A stretch of DNA of 43,209 nt from a virus. The stretch's first letter is position 1, and the number at the start of each line of letters is the position of its first letter. The position numbers and the translations under genes are program-made. The DNA is taken from the IMG/VR virus record IMGVR_UViG_3300036829_000040, positions 1 through 43,209 of that record. One strand, 5' to 3'. This document shows positions 4,855-12,059 of the stretch, piece after piece. Below the pieces are notes generated by a model. The model was not told where the DNA came from. It worked only from the letters and a program-made list of their open reading frames with translations, and ran no database searches.

Positions 4855-4903
4855 GGGCGCGTGCCGCCGGATCGGAGACAAAGCCATACAGCGGCACGCG
4901 CCC
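4855..4903. terminator. 13-bp perfect inverted repeat between two early genes
   Basis: GGGCGCGTGCCGC (4855-4867) is exactly complementary to GCGGCACGCGCCC (4891-4903) around a 23-base loop. It lies in the 132-base gap between the gene ending at 4908 and the SSB start at 4775. No U-run follows on the leftward strand, so it is not a classical intrinsic terminator; it could be an attenuator or mRNA-stability element. The loop carries GGAGACAAAG, close to the start-associated core, on the plus strand. Confidence 0.55.
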
Positions 4904-5364: not shown

Positions 5365-6078
5365 TTAGTTTTCCATCAGGTCGTCAATGATAGCCTGTAG
5401 TCCCTGAGAGATTTCGCCGAGAGTGTTGAGGTTGGCCTTGACGACGCGCTTGCGTGCACCGTCCCACTTGGATTCCTGTGCGAGGTCATGCAATTCGGAG
5501 TACGCGGCCCACAGGTTCGCTGTTTCCCCATCGAACGCGGACACGATGTCGACAGCTTTCATCGGCTCCGCTTCGGCTTCCTCGACTTCGGTTTCATCCA
5601 CGTCAAGCGGTTCTTCTTCTTCTTCTTCTTCTGGCTCAACATCTTTCGCCTTGTTGCGCGGACGCTCGGCACCGTCTAACGATGTCACCGTGTCAGATCC
5701 TTCGCCGTCCAAATCGCGGCTGACCGTCATCTGCGAAACGTTGAACACGGCGGCGAGGGCGCGCTGGCTCAGACCGGCGTCTTTCGACAGCTCCCGTACA
5801 AGTTCCTTGCGGCGGAAACGATCCGGCACGGTAACGCGCACGGCGTCTTTGACCCAGACTGTCCATGACTTGACGCCGAGTCCTTTGTGGATTTCGCCGT
5901 CGATGGCCTCTTGGATCAGTTGACCAAGGCCCGCGATTGTGTCATCAAGTGTCGCAAAGCCTCTCGTCACCCGTTCGCTAGCGGCGCGGACCTTCTTATC
6001 CAGCGCTTTGGCGTCCTTCTTGGATAGCGGCGTCGGCATGAGTTCTGCATCTACCGTAGCAATTTCGGTGGTCGTCAT
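5365..6078 (-). CDS. ParB/HTH-type DNA-binding protein with acidic linker
   Basis: ATG 6078 (237 residues) overlaps the upstream stop as ATGA and has a GGAAGGA ribosome site; a TTG at 6096 is in frame. Residues about 100-125 read LSQRALAAVFNVSQMTVSRDL, a clear helix-turn-helix like that of ParB/KorB-type proteins. It is preceded by a basic RFRRKELVREL helix and followed by a run of seven glutamates and further acidic linker. The C-terminal 65 residues form a helical domain, perhaps for dimerisation. It is the best candidate in the window for a protein binding the dispersed 18-bp palindromes, but that link is inference. No ParA was seen. Confidence 0.7.
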   Translation of the reverse strand: MTTTEIATVDAELMPTPLSKKDAKALDKKVRAASERVTRGFATLDDTIAGLGQLIQEAIDGEIHKGLGVKSWTVWVKDAVRVTVPDRFRRKELVRELSKDAGLSQRALAAVFNVSQMTVSRDLDGEGSDTVTSLDGAERPRNKAKDVEPEEEEEEEPLDVDETEVEEAEAEPMKAVDIVSAFDGETANLWAAYSELHDLAQESKWDGARKRVVKANLNTLGEISQGLQAIIDDLMEN

Positions 6079-6404
6079 TGTTCTGGTTCCTTCCAATCTA
6101 GTTGCGTCAGAGGATCATTGTCTGTGCGTGACGCTCGCACAAGTTTGGTGATGGCCGCAGCACACATCAGCAAGGTTGTCTCGTGCGCTGCCCGTCCACC
6201 AACATTCTCAGCCACTTTGATGTAGCCCTTGAGCCAGTCGAAAAGCACTGACGCGTCAGTGTTTTCGCCTGCCATCACATAGATGTCAGGTTCCATCGTT
6301 TTGACGTGCGCGATGATCTTGTCAAGATGATTGAGTGCTTGCGTCCACATTTCATCGGCACCGTGTATACGTGCCGGGTCGCGGTTGACTTCGGGAATGT
6401 CCAT
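6075..6404 (-). CDS. hypothetical protein, 109 aa, start-associated-sequence gene
   Basis: ATG 6404 directly follows the AGATTGGAGACAA start-associated sequence; a longer in-frame form to 6434 is not needed. The protein is helical (MWTQALNHLDKIIAHV, SVLFDWLKGYIKVAENV, TTLLMCAAAITKLVRA) with no known motif. It is the last of the seven start-associated-sequence genes and is coupled to the ParB-like gene downstream. Confidence 0.7.
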   Translation of the reverse strand: MDIPEVNRDPARIHGADEMWTQALNHLDKIIAHVKTMEPDIYVMAGENTDASVLFDWLKGYIKVAENVGGRAAHETTLLMCAAAITKLVRASRTDNDPLTQLDWKEPEQ

Positions 6405-6442
6405 CGTTGTCTCCAATCTCGGACTGTCACACATGTTACAGT
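6405..6442 (-). promoter_or_regulatory. start-associated sequence, copy 7 (with weak hairpin)
   Basis: Leftward RNA: a short stem ACUGU (6442-6438) with ACAGU (6427-6423), then AGATTGGAGACAA ending 2 bases before the ATG at 6404. It lacks the outer GAAA-loop hairpin of the other copies. Confidence 0.55.
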
Positions 6443-6697
6443 TCAGATGGCTACTAGGTACGGGTGCTCGTGGTCGTCACCCAGCTTGCGTGCTGTCACA
6501 ACATCGTTGAACAGTCGGATGACGGATTGTTCTGTCATACAATGGATTAGCGTGCCGTGGTGCTTGCCGCCGTCGATCATCAGCACGTATGCCATGCCGT
6601 GATCGTCTGGATGGTATTCGGCTGTAATGATTTCGGTAGCGCGCGCGAAGCGCATAAGTACGTGCGTCATGTCATCATCAGCTAGGGTGGTCGTCAT
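6443..6697 (-). CDS. hypothetical protein, 84 aa
   Basis: First gene after the intrinsic terminator at 6804-6838. The start is uncertain: ATG 6697 (MTTTLADDDMTHVLMRFARA) is chosen because coding-like sequence begins there, but ATG 6670 and an extension to 6793 are possible, and no strong ribosome site marks any of them. The protein looks like a small alpha/beta domain (MAYVLMIDGGKHHGTLIHC). Function unknown. It needs its own promoter or readthrough of the terminator; no convincing promoter was identified between 6700 and 6803. Confidence 0.6.
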   Translation of the reverse strand: MTTTLADDDMTHVLMRFARATEIITAEYHPDDHGMAYVLMIDGGKHHGTLIHCMTEQSVIRLFNDVVTARKLGDDHEHPYLVAI

Positions 6698-6803
6698 CTG
6701 CTGGACAGTACGCCTACCTGGTGACAATTGACCGCCCTGGTACATCAGCCGTATATACGCTCTGCGATGCCCATTGCTGGCTCTCAGATCCATTCTAAGA
6801 CAT

Positions 6804-6838
6804 AAAAAAAGCCGATACCCACGAATGGGTACCGGCTC
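6804..6838 (-). terminator. intrinsic terminator (UUCG loop, U7 tract)
   Basis: In the leftward RNA GCCGGUACCCA pairs with UGGGUAUCGGC (11 pairs, one G-U) around a UUCG tetraloop and is followed by seven U residues at 6810-6804. This is the best terminator in the window. It follows the ribbon-helix-helix gene and closes the start-associated-sequence block. Confidence 0.92.
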
Positions 6839-6852
6839 TCTCTATTTGTCTC

Positions 6853-6984
6853 CTAGCGGACGTAAGCGAATAATAGCCTACGTATCACTGTTGAAATTTC
6901 GTCTCCCTCACGTTTCGCCTTGATTTTGGCGCGATCCCACAGGTCGTCTGGTACGCGAACTGTGCGAATCTTCATGTCTGCCAT
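6853..6984 (-). CDS. ribbon-helix-helix DNA-binding protein, 43 aa
   Basis: Short gene from ATG 6984 to TAG 6853. The sequence MADMKIRTVRVPDDLWDRAK and then EISTVIRRLLFAYV is the standard ribbon-helix-helix (CopG/Arc/MetJ) pattern: a short strand ending in V-P-D-D-L-W, a helix, then a second helix with S-x-V-I-R. Such proteins are dimeric repressors. It lies between the DUF732 gene and the strong terminator. Its operator is not known; the 20-bp palindrome at 11932 and the 18-bp family are both possible. Confidence 0.75.
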   Translation of the reverse strand: MADMKIRTVRVPDDLWDRAKIKAKREGDEISTVIRRLLFAYVR

Positions 6985-6993
6985 AGCATTTGG

Positions 6994-7332
6994 TCACGCT
7001 TTCGTTGTTGGATACAGCCAGGCATTCAGCGCTGGCTCGTTTGACGGGCACAGCTCGGACACTGCAACCACGATGATGACCGACGTTGTGTGGGCCGAAA
7101 CTCCTGCTGCCACAGCGTTGTTCACGTCAGCCTGGATACCGGCGACACCGTAATACGAGATGTCACCGCATATCTGGTGTCCCAGCGTCAGCACTGCCTG
7201 CGACGGTTCGACACCGTAGCTTGCGACGCTGTTGATGTAGGACGATTCGTCGGCGTGTGCATCTTGAGCCATGCTCAAGGCAATCGCCGCCAGTGCACCC
7301 GCTGCCGCCGCGACTACTACAGACTTGTTCAT
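6994..7332 (-). CDS. DUF732-type secreted protein
   Basis: 112 residues from ATG 7332, placed directly after a start-associated sequence; a longer in-frame ORF to 7470 runs through the repeat and is rejected. Residues 1-27 (MNKSVVVAAAAGALAAIALS...) form a signal peptide ending near AHA-D. The mature part has YINSVASYGV, GHQICGDI and VSELCPSNEPAL, matching DUF732, a small two-cysteine helical secreted domain abundant in mycobacteria. Export would place it outside the membrane or in the envelope. Role unknown; a host-derived gene expressed early, possibly altering the envelope or superinfection, is an inference. Confidence 0.8.
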   Translation of the reverse strand: MNKSVVVAAAAGALAAIALSMAQDAHADESSYINSVASYGVEPSQAVLTLGHQICGDISYYGVAGIQADVNNAVAAGVSAHTTSVIIVVAVSELCPSNEPALNAWLYPTTKA

Positions 7333-7398
7333 TGTTGTCTCCAATCTAATTTGTTGTTGTGGGTTGAATAACCCAGCAGCACAGCCTCTTTCGAGGCT
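7333..7398 (-). promoter_or_regulatory. start-associated RNA cassette, copy 6
   Basis: Leftward RNA: hairpin AGCCUC-GAAA-GAGGCU (7398-7383), hairpin GGGUU-AUUC-AACCC (7374-7361), then AGATTGGAGACAACA before the ATG at 7332. The stem of the second hairpin differs from other copies but still pairs. Confidence 0.8.
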
Positions 7399-7411
7399 GG
7401 CTGAGTGCGAT

Positions 7412-7612
7412 TCATCTCCCTTTGTAGATCCGGACACGCCAGCGTGCCATCGGCCAACCATCCGGATCATGGGTTATGCCAATGGGTTTCACTTCGATCT
7501 GGTCGCCCGTTTCGGCTTGGCCGTCGCGCGCCACCTTCATTGTTGCGTCGTGTATCAGCAGCTCCGTCGTGCTTGGCAGAAACATCGGTGTGCAAACAAT
7601 TTCCTCGATCAT
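7412..7612 (-). CDS. hypothetical protein, 66 aa
   Basis: ATG 7612, directly after the stop of the 51-aa gene. It begins MIEEIVCTPMFLPS and ends WRVRIYKGR; hydrophobic strands suggest a small beta barrel. No family recognised. Its stop lies 14 bases before the outer hairpin of the next start-associated cassette. Confidence 0.65.
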   Translation of the reverse strand: MIEEIVCTPMFLPSTTELLIHDATMKVARDGQAETGDQIEVKPIGITHDPDGWPMARWRVRIYKGR

Positions 7613-7613
7613 G

Positions 7614-7769
7614 TCATTGCCCCATCATCGAGCGCGCGTAGCGCATTGTTGAGTCAATGACACGTTCGGCTTGCTGCCGCTGCTCCGGTGTGACCTTGGC
7701 CGGGTCAATCTTGAGTAGCAGCAACAGGTTTGACACTGCATCATGTTTGAACCAGTTGTAGCCGCTCAT
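7614..7769 (-). CDS. small hypothetical protein, 51 aa
   Basis: Short gene read directly from the sequence: ATG 7769 overlaps the previous stop as ATGA and the stop TGA lies at 7616-7614, just before the next ATG. It begins MSGYNWFKHDAVSNLLLLLK, then KVTPEQRQQAERVIDS, an amphipathic helical protein. No function assigned; supported by end-to-end coupling. Confidence 0.6.
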   Translation of the reverse strand: MSGYNWFKHDAVSNLLLLLKIDPAKVTPEQRQQAERVIDSTMRYARSMMGQ

Positions 7770-7972
7770 CGCTTGTGCGCCTTAAGCCAGTCCTGAAACG
7801 TTACGAGCTTGCCGCCCTTGGCTTTCCAGTGCGCGATGTCGGCTTCGTAATCGCCGGTGAATCTCTCACGCTGTACCTTTTGCCGTAACCGTTCTAGCCG
7901 GTAATCCCACACCAGTTCGGCGTGAGCCGGTGAACACGACGTGTGCCTTGGACTGCATGGTGTGAACGTCAT
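7766..7972 (-). CDS. hypothetical protein, 68 aa
   Basis: ATG 7972 has ribosome site GAGAGG and overlaps the stop of the 38-aa membrane protein as ATGA; the longer GTG form at 8002 overlaps that gene and is less likely. It begins MTFTPCSPRHTSC, then a charged helix (RLERLRQKVQRERF) and a WKAKGGKLVTFQDW segment. No domain recognised. Confidence 0.65.
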   Translation of the reverse strand: MTFTPCSPRHTSCSPAHAELVWDYRLERLRQKVQRERFTGDYEADIAHWKAKGGKLVTFQDWLKAHKR

Positions 7973-8085
7973 TTCCGGTACCTCTCTTGCTGTTTCGGCC
8001 ACGGTTTAGCTGTCGCTCTGGCGTAGGCTACTGCGACGTTGGTGATCAGCACCCACGCCGCAACGCTTATCCACAGCCACAGCAT
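7969..8085 (-). CDS. tiny membrane protein, 38 aa
   Basis: Start ATG 8085 overlaps the previous stop (TGATG) and the stop at 7971-7969 overlaps the next start. The N-terminus MLWLWISVAAWVLITNVAV is one membrane segment, followed by a basic tail (ARATAKPWPKQQERYRK) expected in the cytoplasm. Function unknown. Confidence 0.65.
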   Translation of the reverse strand: MLWLWISVAAWVLITNVAVAYARATAKPWPKQQERYRK

Positions 8086-8294
8086 CAGCCGACCTCTTTC
8101 GTGATGTCGAATGACCAGACGTCCCAAATGTGCACTTCGCCATCGACTTTCACGCCGTAGCGAAACTTGCCGCCAAAGGGCATGATGTCATGCACGGCAC
8201 CGAACCGACGAGGCTGGTTGGGCCAGCGAAACGACACCCGGTCACCGATACTGATACCATCCAGATCGACTGGCGGGCAGTTGATTTCGTTCAT
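8085..8294 (-). CDS. SH3-like small protein, 69 aa
   Basis: ATG 8294 after a start-associated cassette. The pattern ISIGDRVSFRW...RRFGAVHDIM...FRYGVKVDGEVHIWDVW is a small beta-barrel (SH3/KOW-like), in which a strand with G-D-R-V is followed by strands carrying G-V-K-V-D. Possibly a nucleic-acid- or protein-binding adaptor. Function unknown. Confidence 0.7.
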   Translation of the reverse strand: MNEINCPPVDLDGISIGDRVSFRWPNQPRRFGAVHDIMPFGGKFRYGVKVDGEVHIWDVWSFDITKEVG

Positions 8295-8350
8295 TTTGTC
8301 TCCAATCTCTGTGGACTGAGTTGTCCAGCGGCAGCACTGTTTCCAGTGCT
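8295..8350 (-). promoter_or_regulatory. start-associated RNA cassette, copy 5
   Basis: Leftward RNA: hairpin AGCACUG-GAAA-CAGUGCU (8350-8333), hairpin GGAC-AACUCA-GUCC (8326-8313), then AGATTGGAGACAAA before the ATG at 8294. The outer stem differs from the AGCCUC form in several bases on both arms while pairing is kept. Confidence 0.82.
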
Positions 8351-8364
8351 ACCTTCCTAACTAC

Positions 8365-8703
8365 TCAGTGAGTCGACCAGGTACTACCGTCGTCATGACT
8401 GTGCACACCAGCGGCCAGCGCGCCACGACTGACGCTGCGGCCCGCTAGCTGTTCTGCACGTGCAATGGCCATCTTGGTAGCGGCGGAACCGCTACGTGAG
8501 AGCATCCGGTAGACGCAAGCGTCAGTCATGCCGGAACGGTCGGAATCGCTTATGCCGGTGAACCTTACGCCACCTTGCGGACCAACCTTGATGCCCACTT
8601 TGCGTTGCGCTATGAGCTTGTCGATGATGGATGCTGCTTTGCGTACTTGTTCTTTGCGTTGCGCCAGTGTTTGACGTGGCGCAAGTATTGTGTCGCATGC
8701 CAT
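8365..8703 (-). CDS. hypothetical protein, 112 aa
   Basis: ATG 8703 directly after a start-associated cassette. The protein has a helical N-terminus (QTLAQRKEQVRKAASIIDKL), a strand-turn-strand KVGIKVGPQGGVRFTG and a helical, Ser/Ala-rich C-terminus. It lies two genes downstream of the Ycf46-like ATPase and may work with it. No domain named. Confidence 0.7.
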   Translation of the reverse strand: MACDTILAPRQTLAQRKEQVRKAASIIDKLIAQRKVGIKVGPQGGVRFTGISDSDRSGMTDACVYRMLSRSGSAATKMAIARAEQLAGRSVSRGALAAGVHSHDDGSTWSTH

Positions 8704-8776
8704 TTTGTCTCCAATCTTTAGTGGACTGAGTTGTCCACCGGCACAGCCTTTTTCAAGGCTGGCCGAGTACCACTCA
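8704..8776 (-). promoter_or_regulatory. start-associated RNA cassette, copy 4
   Basis: Covers the whole gap from the upstream stop (TGA 8776-8774). Leftward RNA: hairpin AGCCUU-GAAA-AAGGCU (8760-8745), hairpin GUGGAC-AACUCA-GUCCAC (8738-8721), then AGATTGGAGACAAA and the ATG at 8703. Confidence 0.82.
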
Positions 8777-9502
8777 GGCGGACAGGTCGAGGTTACGTCC
8801 CCGCGGTTTCGGTTCCGCCAGTTCGGCTACCTCAGTGTTGATGTCCAGGAACGCTGTTCGGGCCTTGCTGATCTTGCGTAGTGTGGTGCGGTCAATTTCT
8901 TTGGCCGCTACCTCACCGGCTTTCACCATCTTCGTTGCTGCCGCGCGTGCTGCCTTGATGGCAACCACTGTGCGGCCCTTGGCTTCCGGTGAAAGCATCT
9001 TGCCGACTTCGGTCAGTTGGTTCGCAGCAGCGCGAATAACCTTGGGGTCCAAGGCTTTTACGCCTCGCTGCATGTCTTCCATCAGCGAGCGAACCTCGCC
9101 GGTGATGACTCGCACAGTTTCTACGTCATCCTGTGCGATGCGACCGCAGATAACCCGAAACTCGATGTGCGTGGTTCTAGCGCTGGCGTTGAACTTGTCT
9201 GCCAGTGTTCGTCCTTGCGCGATAGCCTCGCGTAGCTCTGCTTCGCGACTGTTGGGGCACAGCAGCGCAAACTGAGACTTGGTGCATACCGACAGGATCA
9301 ATCCGCAGATCTTGGTGCGTTCCTTGATGGCGCGTTCCTGCTCATCAATGTCTACGACGAGCTTGCGGGTATGAATGTCGGTTATCTCAGACCGATCAAC
9401 GTATTTCACGTCACGGTCGTTGATCTGATATGTCACGTTGCCCTTGACAGCGGTACTCATGTGCACCAACAGACCAGGCTGTAGCGTACGAAATTCTGTC
9501 AT
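8774..9502 (-). CDS. hypothetical helical protein, probable ATPase companion, 242 aa
   Basis: ATG 9502 follows a start-associated cassette; the frame is open 21 codons upstream only because the cassette happens to lack a stop there. The N-terminal 60 residues are strand rich (LQPGLLVHMSTAV, NVTYQINDRDV), the rest is long helices (EAELREAIAQGRTLADKFN, GRTVVAIKAARAAATKMV). Position next to the AAA ATPase with a nearly identical leader suggests joint expression and perhaps a complex. No family recognised. Confidence 0.75.
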   Translation of the reverse strand: MTEFRTLQPGLLVHMSTAVKGNVTYQINDRDVKYVDRSEITDIHTRKLVVDIDEQERAIKERTKICGLILSVCTKSQFALLCPNSREAELREAIAQGRTLADKFNASARTTHIEFRVICGRIAQDDVETVRVITGEVRSLMEDMQRGVKALDPKVIRAAANQLTEVGKMLSPEAKGRTVVAIKAARAAATKMVKAGEVAAKEIDRTTLRKISKARTAFLDINTEVAELAEPKPRGRNLDLSA

Positions 9503-9575
9503 TTTGTCTCCAATCTCTGTTGAGCTGAATTGCTCACTGGCACAGCCTCTTTCGAGGCTGGCCAAGTGCTACTCA
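9503..9575 (-). promoter_or_regulatory. start-associated RNA cassette, copy 3
   Basis: Stop-to-start cassette. Leftward RNA: the ATPase stop TGA (9575-9573), hairpin AGCCUC-GAAA-GAGGCU (9559-9544), hairpin GAGC-AAUUCA-GCUC (9535-9522), AGATTGGAGACAAA, ATG 9502. It differs from copy 2 at a single base over about 76 bases. Confidence 0.85.
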
Positions 9576-11129
9576 GTTAAGGTCCAGCACCCTTGCTTTG
9601 GCACCCTTGCGGGGAGCCTCAACGATGGCTGCTGTGGCGGGGCGTGCGCGTCCCGCCCAGTATTCGCGCAGCTTGCCGATTTTCTCGGAAGCTGTTTTCG
9701 CAAGCGGCACAACAACTTTAGCCGCAAGCAACAGATCATCCGTTGTGACCTCGCGGGCACCGTCATTGAATGCTGCGAACATTGCATCCGGTACCAGAGC
9801 TGCAAGCTCAGCACCGGTGAATGAGTCGGTAGCGTCTGCGACGGTAGCGAAGTCAATCTTGCTGGCGTCACGTTTGTTGGTGCGTAGCGCCGCTGCGATG
9901 ATGGACTCACGTTCGACGTGGTTGGGTAGGTCAACCCACCAAACCTCGTCAAATCGGCCCTTGCGCAATAACTCTGGCGGCAGTTTCTCTGCATTGTTCG
10001 CTGTGGCTATGACGAATGCTTCGCCTTGGCGTTCCTGCATCCATGAGAGCAGGAATCCGAGAGCGTCTGCACTCACGCCACCGTCTGCCGATCCGTCAGT
10101 TGAGCCAGCTAGGGCCTTTTCAATTTCATCGACCCACACCACGCAACGCCCGATAGCCTCGATCATGCTAAAGGTGTTGCGCAGATTGGCTTCTGACTCA
10201 CCTACGTACTTGCCTTTCAGCGCGGCCAGGTCGATCCGGATAACCGGGATCTTCCATTCCGTGCCGATTGTCTTGCAGGCAAGTGACTTACCGCAACCAG
10301 GAACGCCGACTAGGATGGCACCCTTGGGGGCAGGCAGCCCGTATTCACGAGCTGCTGGGCTGTAAGCGCTGGCCCGCGAGACGAGCCAGGATTTCAGATT
10401 GTCAAGTCCACCAAGTGCTTTCAGGCCACCCTCGATTGGGTCGAACCATTCGGCACCGCCAGCCTTGGCAACGACGCGCTTCTTTTCAGCAGCTATGACA
10501 GCGGGGTCGATTCGCTTGGTCTGCACCAGCGAGCGAGCGAAGGTTGCTTGCGCTTGTTCGCCCGAAAGCCCTACTGCTGCATCAATTGCCGCGTCCCGGC
10601 TGCCGTTGATCATAGCGTCGGGCAGATCCTCGATTGTGACATCGAGTATCGCGGCGATTTCCTCGCGGTCAGGCAGCGGCCATTCGTAAACCGTTGTGTC
10701 GTCTGCCAATTCGGCAGGCACGTCCTTTGTAGGTGAGATGATGATGACGGCTTGTGCCTGGTCGCTGTCGCGGCCTGGCAGTGAGCGCGCAAGATTCCTC
10801 AAGCGCCGCAACGTAAGCAGACCGACCGGCGGATTGAGCCATGCGGGTAAGTCCCGCATGATCCACAGCCGTCGTTTTGTGCTGTTGTTGATTGCGTCAA
10901 GAGCTGCATCGGGGTCACCGACTGCATTGTCGTACGTGCTAAGCGGTTTACCGTTCAAACTGGTGAATCCTGCTGCCACGTCCCAGAATACGGGTTCGTA
11001 GTCCACAGTCGCACCGGCCTCGAACAGGTAGGGCTCAACGCGTCCTTCTTCGCGGGTCACTACCCAAAGCATTGGGTTGCGTGCGCGAAGCGATGCGGTG
11101 ATGTCCTGTGCCATCTCTTGTGATTTCAT
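9573..11129 (-). CDS. Ycf46-like AAA ATPase
   Basis: 518 residues from ATG 11129, set by the start-associated sequence. The N-terminal 200 residues (LRARNPMLWVVTREEGRVEP, RRLWIMRDLPAWL, AVIIISPTKDVPAEL) resemble the inactive first domain of Ycf46-type ATPases. The classical AAA core follows: Walker A GVPGCGKS near 280, Walker B VVWVDEIEKA near 335, sensor-1 VIATANN near 385, and an arginine-finger segment RKGRFDEVWWVDLP near 400, then the helical lid. It should form an ATP-driven ring or hexamer; the substrate is unknown. Phage copies are usually found among replication genes. It lies between two genes with matching leaders. Confidence 0.85.
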   Translation of the reverse strand: MKSQEMAQDITASLRARNPMLWVVTREEGRVEPYLFEAGATVDYEPVFWDVAAGFTSLNGKPLSTYDNAVGDPDAALDAINNSTKRRLWIMRDLPAWLNPPVGLLTLRRLRNLARSLPGRDSDQAQAVIIISPTKDVPAELADDTTVYEWPLPDREEIAAILDVTIEDLPDAMINGSRDAAIDAAVGLSGEQAQATFARSLVQTKRIDPAVIAAEKKRVVAKAGGAEWFDPIEGGLKALGGLDNLKSWLVSRASAYSPAAREYGLPAPKGAILVGVPGCGKSLACKTIGTEWKIPVIRIDLAALKGKYVGESEANLRNTFSMIEAIGRCVVWVDEIEKALAGSTDGSADGGVSADALGFLLSWMQERQGEAFVIATANNAEKLPPELLRKGRFDEVWWVDLPNHVERESIIAAALRTNKRDASKIDFATVADATDSFTGAELAALVPDAMFAAFNDGAREVTTDDLLLAAKVVVPLAKTASEKIGKLREYWAGRARPATAAIVEAPRKGAKARVLDLN

Positions 11130-11202
11130 TTTGTCTCCAATCTCTGTTGAGCTGAATTGCTCACTGGCACAGCCTCTTTCGAGGCTGGCCAAGCGCTACT
11201 CA
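11130..11202 (-). promoter_or_regulatory. start-associated RNA cassette, copy 2
   Basis: Stop-to-start cassette: TGA (11202-11200), hairpin AGCCUC-GAAA-GAGGCU (11186-11171), hairpin GAGC-AAUUCA-GCUC (11162-11149), AGATTGGAGACAAA, ATG 11129. Nearly identical to copy 3, which points to recent duplication or gene conversion. Confidence 0.85.
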
Positions 11203-11481
11203 GATCGTCTCGTATCCCCCCTGCTGAATCATGCTCACCAGGTATTCGACGCTCTCGGTTCTTTCCATGCCGTTGCTCGTGATCCACACGTAGGCATCGC
11301 GCACGTCCGTACCGTAGGGCATCATCCCAAAGTTGTTGGGACCGACGACAAGTGAGCGAAGCTCACCAGTGCGAATGTCGCTGTCGTTGGCCATCCAGCG
11401 GATCTTGGCCTTACTGCTGATGTTGTTCAGCAGTTCGCCAAGCGCGAAAGCATAAGCCGTGGTCAGGGTCGATTCTTTCAT
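11200..11481 (-). CDS. hypothetical protein, 93 aa, first gene of the early operon
   Basis: ATG 11481 after the start-associated sequence; an in-frame codon 4 positions earlier lies inside that sequence. The protein has a helical N-terminus (TTAYAFALGELLNNISSKAK), strands (LRSLVVGPNNFGMM, DAYVWITSNG) and a C-terminal helix. It is the promoter-proximal gene below the leftward promoter at 11950. No domain recognised. Confidence 0.7.
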   Translation of the reverse strand: MKESTLTTAYAFALGELLNNISSKAKIRWMANDSDIRTGELRSLVVGPNNFGMMPYGTDVRDAYVWITSNGMERTESVEYLVSMIQQGGYETI

Positions 11482-11554
11482 GTTTGTCTCCAATCTATTT
11501 GGTAGAGAATTGGTTTCAATTCCCTTGAAAGCCAGCCGATCGAAACCGGCTGGC
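11482..11554 (-). promoter_or_regulatory. start-associated RNA cassette, copy 1
   Basis: Leftward RNA: hairpin GCCAGCCG...CGGCUGGC with 8-base loop (11554-11531), hairpin GAAUUG-AAAC-CAAUUC (11522-11507), AGATTGGAGACAAAC, ATG 11481. Both stems differ completely in sequence from the other copies. A partial plus-strand copy of the core (AGATTGAAGGAGACAAGG) lies just beyond at 11563-11580. Confidence 0.78.
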
Positions 11555-11949
11555 AGTCAAGAAGATTGAAGGAGACAAGGATCGTACGAAATTGGGCCTT
11601 ACACTGACGCGGCCAGGTTGTGACGTGGTGTCCCACGTGTGCCCCTACTCAGTCTCGAAACCTTTTGGGTTGATACACTCACTGGTCTTACGCGAATCCC
11701 CTATGAAGCCAACATGTTTCAGCTGGTCTGACACAATGTGCGGGGGGACTTACTCTAAGCCCTATTCGCCAAATCCTGTGTTGCGCAACGCGGCTCGTCG
11801 TGTGCCCGAGTCTTACGCGTGTGCGAGAACCTGCTGTGCTTGGGTGACTTCTGCCGTGGTCCCCGCGTGTGCGAGAGGGGCGTGCGATGTGCCCCGGCGC
11901 GTCCTGCTGTGCTTGTTCTCTTTCGCGTCGTATTGACCGCTTGCGGTCA
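11555..11949 (-). other. long untranslated leader or non-coding RNA region
   Basis: No credible gene on either strand; the ORFs present are Cys/Arg-rich and lack ribosome sites. The leftward RNA predicted from the promoter at 11950 would carry about 460 bases ahead of ATG 11481. It contains a strong hairpin ACGTGG-4-CCACGT (11623-11638) and two pairs of direct repeats: CGTGTGCGAGA near 11818 and 11866, and CCTGCTGTGCTTG near 11830 and 11903. Could be an antitermination leader, a small RNA, or part of an origin; not resolved. Confidence 0.5.
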
Positions 11950-11951
11950 AT
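11932..11951. promoter_or_regulatory. 20-bp palindrome at the early promoter (candidate operator)
   Basis: ATTGACCGC TT GCGGTCAAT, a perfect 9-bp inverted repeat, abutting and partly overlapping the -10 box of the leftward promoter, so it covers the expected start site. This is a typical position for a repressor operator. No other copy was noticed. Confidence 0.6.
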
Positions 11952-11977
11952 CCTATCGTGTATATACAGAATGTCAA
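11950..11977 (-). promoter_or_regulatory. leftward sigma-A-type early promoter
   Basis: On the minus strand TTGACA (11977-11972), a 16-base spacer, and TAGGAT (11955-11950). The -35 is a perfect consensus and the -10 fits the TAnnnT pattern of actinobacterial housekeeping promoters. Start would be near 11943. It is well placed to drive the early operon from 11481 leftward. Confidence 0.7.
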
Positions 11978-12059
11978 CTACGGTAGAGGCCAGCAAACGG
12001 CCGGCATCGAGTTTGGAGCTCCATTGTTGCAGGTGGGAGCGTTCCTATGAGTATCCGAG

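Follow-up and report, generated by a model that had tools for sequence, protein, structure and literature searches.

In the early region of phage T7, the polycistronic message is cut at RNase III processing sites, which lie in intergenic hairpins. Self-cleaving RNAs have also been associated with phage genes. Several hammerheads have been found around single prophage genes; their cleavage was demonstrated in vitro, and a role in the processing of long phage transcripts was suggested (Perreault 2011, PMC3088659). The pistol ribozyme, found near ribozyme-associated genes, has a P1 loop that pairs with the P2-P3 junction (PMC4604425). In cluster K mycobacteriophages, a conserved motif of about 13 nucleotides (nt), SAS, is located at the Shine-Dalgarno sequence a few nt before many start codons, with a second element upstream, and a single antisense copy of SAS is present in several of these genomes (Pope 2011, PMC3203893). 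Here we describe an intergenic RNA element, the type A cassette, in a complete IMG/VR virus record of 43,209 bases (IMGVR_UViG_3300036829_000040), the whole of which is called the window below. The element precedes five genes that share a start motif, and in related phages it is exchanged with type II hammerheads at orthologous genes.

The five genes of the window (starts at 7332, 8294, 8703, 9502 and 11129) are preceded by one homologous element, which spans the gap from the upstream stop codon to the downstream Shine-Dalgarno motif. All window features given here by coordinates lie on the minus strand, which is the operon strand. The element consists, in order, of an upstream strand UGAGU (a), a variable stem (b) closed mostly by GNRA or UUCG-type loops, and a near hairpin c-linker-a'-c', the parts of which are constant in length at 4 nt, 1 linker nt, 5 nt and 4 nt. 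The loop of this hairpin (ACUCA or AUUCA) is complementary to UGAGU or UGAAU 38-62 nt upstream, and strand a includes the stop codon of the preceding gene in all five window copies. The cassettes are located at 11146..11203 ahead of the AAA ATPase gene (start 11129; UGAGU / GAGC-A-AUUCA-GCUC, beginning at the upstream TGA), at 9519..9576 ahead of the phrog_11021 gene (start 9502), at 8720..8777 ahead of the gene for a 112-aa phrog_11784 protein (start 8703), at 8310..8368 ahead of a 69-aa gene (start 8294), and at 7358..7415 ahead of the DUF732 gene (start 7332). An earlier note on this DNA had described two stem-loops in the same order ahead of six genes. Every stem that it quoted is found, and five of the six copies are the homologous element, while the sixth, at the gene starting at 11481, is a different pair of hairpins. 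The note had let the cassette run exactly from the upstream stop in three copies, an undercount, as all five start at the stop codon, and it had missed the pairing of the near-hairpin loop with the upstream stop-codon region.

Three related viral contigs were reached via the AAA ATPase, namely G001 (89% ATPase identity), G002 (72%) and G003 (65%), and beyond the window type A was found only in these. The four phages together contain 15 copies. A strict type A template fits 5 of the 7 window loci and 14 of the 15 copies, as compared with 44 of 3000 random genomic 85-mers; the copy ahead of the 69-aa gene in G003 is only a loose fit. All five window cassettes match the template, including that of the DUF732 gene, which does so with entirely different letters (UGAAU / GGGU-U-AUUCA-ACCC; 2 of 300 shuffles). 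When the 15 copies are aligned, 89.1% of the cells are paired, and 98.3% in the near hairpin; the alignment contains three rows misaligned by MAFFT. Sliding the partners reduces pairing to 31-41%. Changes on both sides occur in 11 of 22 pairs, giving 26 compensatory cells where shuffling gives 7.2 on average (0/500 shuffles), and pair 4 of the long-range helix varies among G-C, G-U and A-U. Thus, the claim of the earlier note that RNA structure is conserved by compensatory change is supported, and it extends across related phages. A covariance model (R1) built from 11 copies also detected the three copies that had been held out, with E values of about 1e-8 to 1e-9, among them that of the 69-aa gene in the window (39.8 bits, E 1.6e-9). 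The other window cassettes score 80.0 (AAA ATPase), 82.8 (phrog_11021), 83.9 (112-aa gene) and 74.2 bits (DUF732). The most variable part of type A is the intergenic stem, which is stable and 10-14 bp long at every copy, and the most conserved is the small core formed by the loop and its upstream partner. Unpaired letters are also conserved, namely AGUACU, the linker A and the tail CACAAC. No match of type A to Rfam was obtained.

Two alternative folds of type A differ by only about 0.6-6.7 kcal/mol in seven copies (folding energies throughout are based on minimum free energy), and because they are so close, the element would be either a pseudoknot, in which a and c pair together, or a two-state switch, in which they alternate. 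The latter would be a translation-coupling switch that involves no cleavage. With the upstream gene untranslated, UGAGU at the stop would pair with ACUCA and the freed UCC strand would mask the downstream Shine-Dalgarno sequence, whereas a ribosome at the stop codon would block this pairing, so that the near hairpin can fold and leave the motif accessible. The stop codon within the upstream strand in 5/5 window copies and the small energy difference between the folds agree with such a switch, as does pairing of the freed strand with UUGGA in some a-stem folds; however, in the GGGU/ACCC and GGGC/GCCC copies the freed strand pairs only weakly with the motif, and the exchange with cleaving hammerheads described next would be left unexplained. 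We consider the switch rather unlikely.

A scan for the core and stems revealed nine intact type II hammerheads in the related phages, one in G001, six in G002 and two in G003, and none in the 43-kb window or on the opposite strands. All nine have GAAA, CUGANGA, GUC, stems I-III and complementarity between loop I and the 3' tail; the cassettes concerned in G001-G003 are thus full type II hammerheads, with the loop I pseudoknot. Each lies in a gap from a stop codon to a start motif or, at the first motif gene, in the leader. By orthology, the AAA ATPase gene is preceded by type A in the window and G001 and by a hammerhead in G002 and G003. The phrog_11021 gene and the 112-aa gene are each preceded by type A in the window, G001 and G003 and by a hammerhead in G002. 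At the DUF732 locus the arrangement is reversed, with type A in the window, in G001 and in the otherwise hammerhead-bearing G002, and a hammerhead in G003. At least four exchanges between type A and hammerhead are needed at these four orthologous loci, and the two never occur together at one locus. Each of the two kinds begins at the upstream stop or a few nt from it and reaches to the same motif. Two unrelated RNA folds fill one slot, one of them being a known self-cleaving ribozyme with a conserved catalytic core, and this is the chief new evidence.

The type II hammerhead (Rfam RF02276; PMC3088659) resembles type A in occupying the same intergenic place in relatives, in its two hairpins, in a pseudoknot between a loop and a strand, and in the several copies flanking single phage genes. 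Its cut leaves a hairpin on the 3' end of the upstream product and on the 5' end of the downstream product, and type A has the same two-hairpin layout. Type A differs in that its loop pairs with an upstream instead of a downstream strand and in that the GAAA, NUH and CUGANGA core is absent from every copy. Like pistol, it is a small phage-associated RNA with stems and a hairpin-loop pseudoknot, but in type A it is the loop of the last hairpin that pairs with the 5' strand, and positions 6000-12000 of the window gave no match at E<=10 to Rfam ribozymes (pistol, twister, hatchet, HDV-like and others).

The stable intergenic stem at every copy, in the same position as the hammerheads, might also be explained by a processing site of RNase III or another host RNase, a protein cutting the stem in place of the hammerhead. 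This is unlikely, since the stem is the most variable part and a double-strand RNase has no need of the conserved loop-upstream core; the T7 sites, too, are unlike type A in having neither a conserved pseudoknot core nor exchange with ribozymes. The conserved unpaired letters could instead be recognised by an RNA-binding protein, of phage or host, with control over translation. No candidate for such a protein was found, and the exchange with hammerheads is again not accounted for, so that this explanation is improbable. Least probable is a passive insulator, in which any stable structure protects mRNA ends or spaces genes and the hammerheads are present for their structure alone. It would suit the simple hairpin of the last gene, which differs between the window and G001, but the full catalytic core is kept in 9/9 hammerheads, and type A keeps a specific core and not just any hairpin.

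We favour the view that type A processes mRNA, because hammerheads occupy the same gaps in related phages. That it is an mRNA-processing element of some kind is probable. Self-cleavage, suggested by the exchange with hammerheads together with the pseudoknot core, has a somewhat less than even chance of being right. The full proposal, that type A is an intergenic pseudoknot element cutting the polycistronic phage mRNA, with the genes under a common motif repressible by antisense RNA, stands at about an even chance. In this proposal, type A would fold into a pseudoknot in the gap between stop codon and Shine-Dalgarno sequence and most likely cleave itself. After the cut, the upstream message would be left with the 5' hairpin capping its 3' end and the downstream message with the 3' hairpin capping its 5' end, the parts that stems III and I, respectively, play in type II hammerheads. 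The separated genes, sharing one start motif, could be repressed together by a phage-encoded antisense hairpin at 4855-4903. The earlier note had offered a decision on mRNA processing as one option; it is now the favoured one.

Several points weigh against this proposal. The consensus, drawn from only four phages and 15 copies, is thin, a catalytic core is not assignable, and the hairpin core is tolerant of many changes. Of the nine hammerheads, seven are under the Rfam cut-off or unreported by Rfam and two pass the gathering score. Matches to type II were recognised by Rfam in G001 and G003, and the G002 copies, one of them reported, are sub-threshold. As to cleavage, the structure, its covariation, the exchange at four loci and the complementary hairpin are what is observed, and it is from these that we infer cleavage, its site and antisense repression. 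Location, too, may mislead. The RAGATH series was named for its association with ribozyme-linked genes. RAGATH-18 turned out to give guide RNAs (PMC11061315), so that a location shared with ribozymes is no proof. In a literature covered in part, no paper tying hammerheads to mycobacteriophages was found.

The start motif AGATTGGAGACAA is exact in all seven genes noted earlier and ends 1-3 nt ahead of the ATG, as had been claimed. It lies at 11484..11496 (first gene, start 11481), 11131..11143 (AAA ATPase), 9504..9516 (phrog_11021), 8705..8717 (112-aa gene), 8296..8308 (69-aa gene), 7335..7347 (DUF732) and 6407..6419 (last gene, start 6404, where only a simple hairpin lies upstream). TGGAGACA followed by 1-5 nt and ATG is observed 7 times against 0.08 expected by chance, and G001, G002 and G003 use the same motif. 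The Shine-Dalgarno sequence GGAG accounts for just four of its bases; the remainder would be explained if pairing with another RNA were required.

A possible partner is a 15-bp hairpin at 4855..4903, which begins 4 nt after a stop codon and whose loop carries TTTGTCTCCGATC, the complement of the start motif. With G-U pairs allowed, a full complement of the 10-nt motif core GATTGGAGAC occurs on the operon strand of the whole window at this hairpin and at one G-U-rich site elsewhere, and at one place in each operon region examined in G001-G003. Each of the four phages has the hairpin directly behind a stop codon (in the relatives at about 9636-9684 (+) of L169, about 10651 of the reverse complement of L170 and about 11386 of the reverse complement of L171), with a stem of 15 bp or longer and z-scores of -5.5 to -6.5. 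Both sides have changed in six pairs of the stem among the four sequences (0/500 shuffles), while the loop TTTGTCTCC(A/G)ATC is kept, an A-to-G change in the window giving a G-U pair. The predicted 13-bp duplex of loop and motif has -19.6 to -19.9 kcal/mol; pairing of the motif with the terminal sequence of a typical mycobacterial 16S rRNA has -9.3 kcal/mol. The hairpin exposes a loop that complements multiple ribosome binding sites of its own genome, as expected of a trans-acting antisense RNA. Because the loop fully complements the motif and the stem covaries in four phages, the hairpin points to antisense control over the whole gene set.

The likeness to SAS and ESAS suggested earlier stands in part. 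The window motif is analogous to SAS in its position at the Shine-Dalgarno sequence before many non-structural genes, and both have a single antisense copy placed in a hairpin, but the sequences differ (SAS, GGGATAGGAGCCC). ESAS is a pair of imperfect 17-bp inverted repeats with a fixed consensus, and its authors found little to support that it forms a hairpin in mRNA (PMC3203893). Identity of type A with ESAS was rejected, as the type A stems change sequence yet keep pairing. A long hairpin carries the single antisense SAS in its apical loop in Adephagia (L204:28650-28725) and Angelica (L205:28600-28680), and likewise in Anaya, Validus, Niklas and SgtBeansprout, the hairpin being kept in other Anayavirus genomes. 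It is also kept in DarthP and Ekdilam, with one loop base missing and, in DarthP, SAS unchanged; it was not found in the stretches read of Pixie, Hurricane, SirPhilip and Nergal. All 128 of 128 pair cells of this hairpin are kept, with double changes in one pair, not above shuffles, so that it lends support by analogy only.

The first and last genes have other structures upstream. The first gene has a far hairpin of 10 bp with a UUCG loop (11531..11554) and a near hairpin GAAUU-GAAACC-AAUUC (11507..11522). Within this cassette (11507-11554), GGUUUC is perfectly complementary to GAAACC of the near-hairpin loop, and a kissing pair between them is possible. At the last gene, a short hairpin ACUGU..ACAGU (6423..6442) separates the stop codon from the motif, and the ortholog G001_7601 has a different 7-bp hairpin. 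Two orthologous genes with the start motif in the relatives (L169:7329 and the reverse complement of L171:9224) have neither type A nor a hammerhead but a different upstream structure, with ACGACCAA in common. A SigA-like operon promoter is predicted at 11950..11977 (TTGACA-16-TAGGAT), with TTGACA kept in all four phages, and is followed in each by a leader of 340-500 nt that is mostly unconserved. GTCTCCTTCAATC in the leader of the first gene is kept in all four and, by its sequence, can pair with the start motif of that gene. The corresponding leader anti-motif of the window, TTGTCTCCTTCAATC (11564..11578), is complementary to the motif with 3 bulged bases, and would be able to mask the first start motif (11484-11578). 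The same leader stretch is the 5' strand of hammerhead stem II in G001-G003, so that ribozyme folding and motif masking would compete there.

A mycobacterial or related host is likely for the window phage, because its terminase has 49% identity to a Mycobacterium abscessus prophage terminase, its AAA ATPase 52% identity to cluster O mycobacteriophage homologues, and one start-motif gene (start 7332) carries a DUF732 domain. Window positions 8-20 kb had no near DNA match among 50,697 phage records, where the cassette gave only chance matches, and an initial loose pattern scan of IMG/VR likewise returned an excess of these. Scans for TGAGTRGTACT...ACTCAGTCC and TGGACAACTCAGTCCA recovered the three relatives plus chance matches in unrelated sequence, and those for CAAC-GATTGG... 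and the leader anti-motif no further members. Neither start motif nor cassettes are present in AAA ATPase relatives at a greater distance, among them cluster O mycobacteriophages (examined in phage Catdawg) and L203 at 45% identity, and a search of GTDB with the ATPase gave two contigs of metagenome-assembled genomes, neither with cassettes. The 17-bp repeat of cluster O was rejected as the same element, being a different DNA palindrome. The RNA ligase RtcB, which would join ribozyme ends, is absent from all four phages, whereas the cluster K phages bearing SAS and ESAS encode it (L204:23827-25020, L205:23259-24446 and L216:24405-25595). RtcB joins 2',3'-cyclic phosphate and 5'-OH ends, the kind that ribozymes leave.

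Natural self-cleaving ribozyme classes are few, nine being counted in a 2019 review (PMC6707401). As a pseudoknot outside any class that takes the place of hammerheads, one for one, at orthologous genes, type A is a candidate of unusual strength for a further one. We put forward only tentatively, as less probable than self-cleavage itself, that type A is such a new class and part of an all-RNA circuit, in which cut single-gene messages with a common start motif would be switched off by the antisense hairpin. The antisense hairpin provides a concrete hypothesis for why phages such as those of cluster K repeat a 13-nt start motif that exceeds the Shine-Dalgarno core; if true, the same logic would explain the cluster K SAS, the role of which has been open since 2011.

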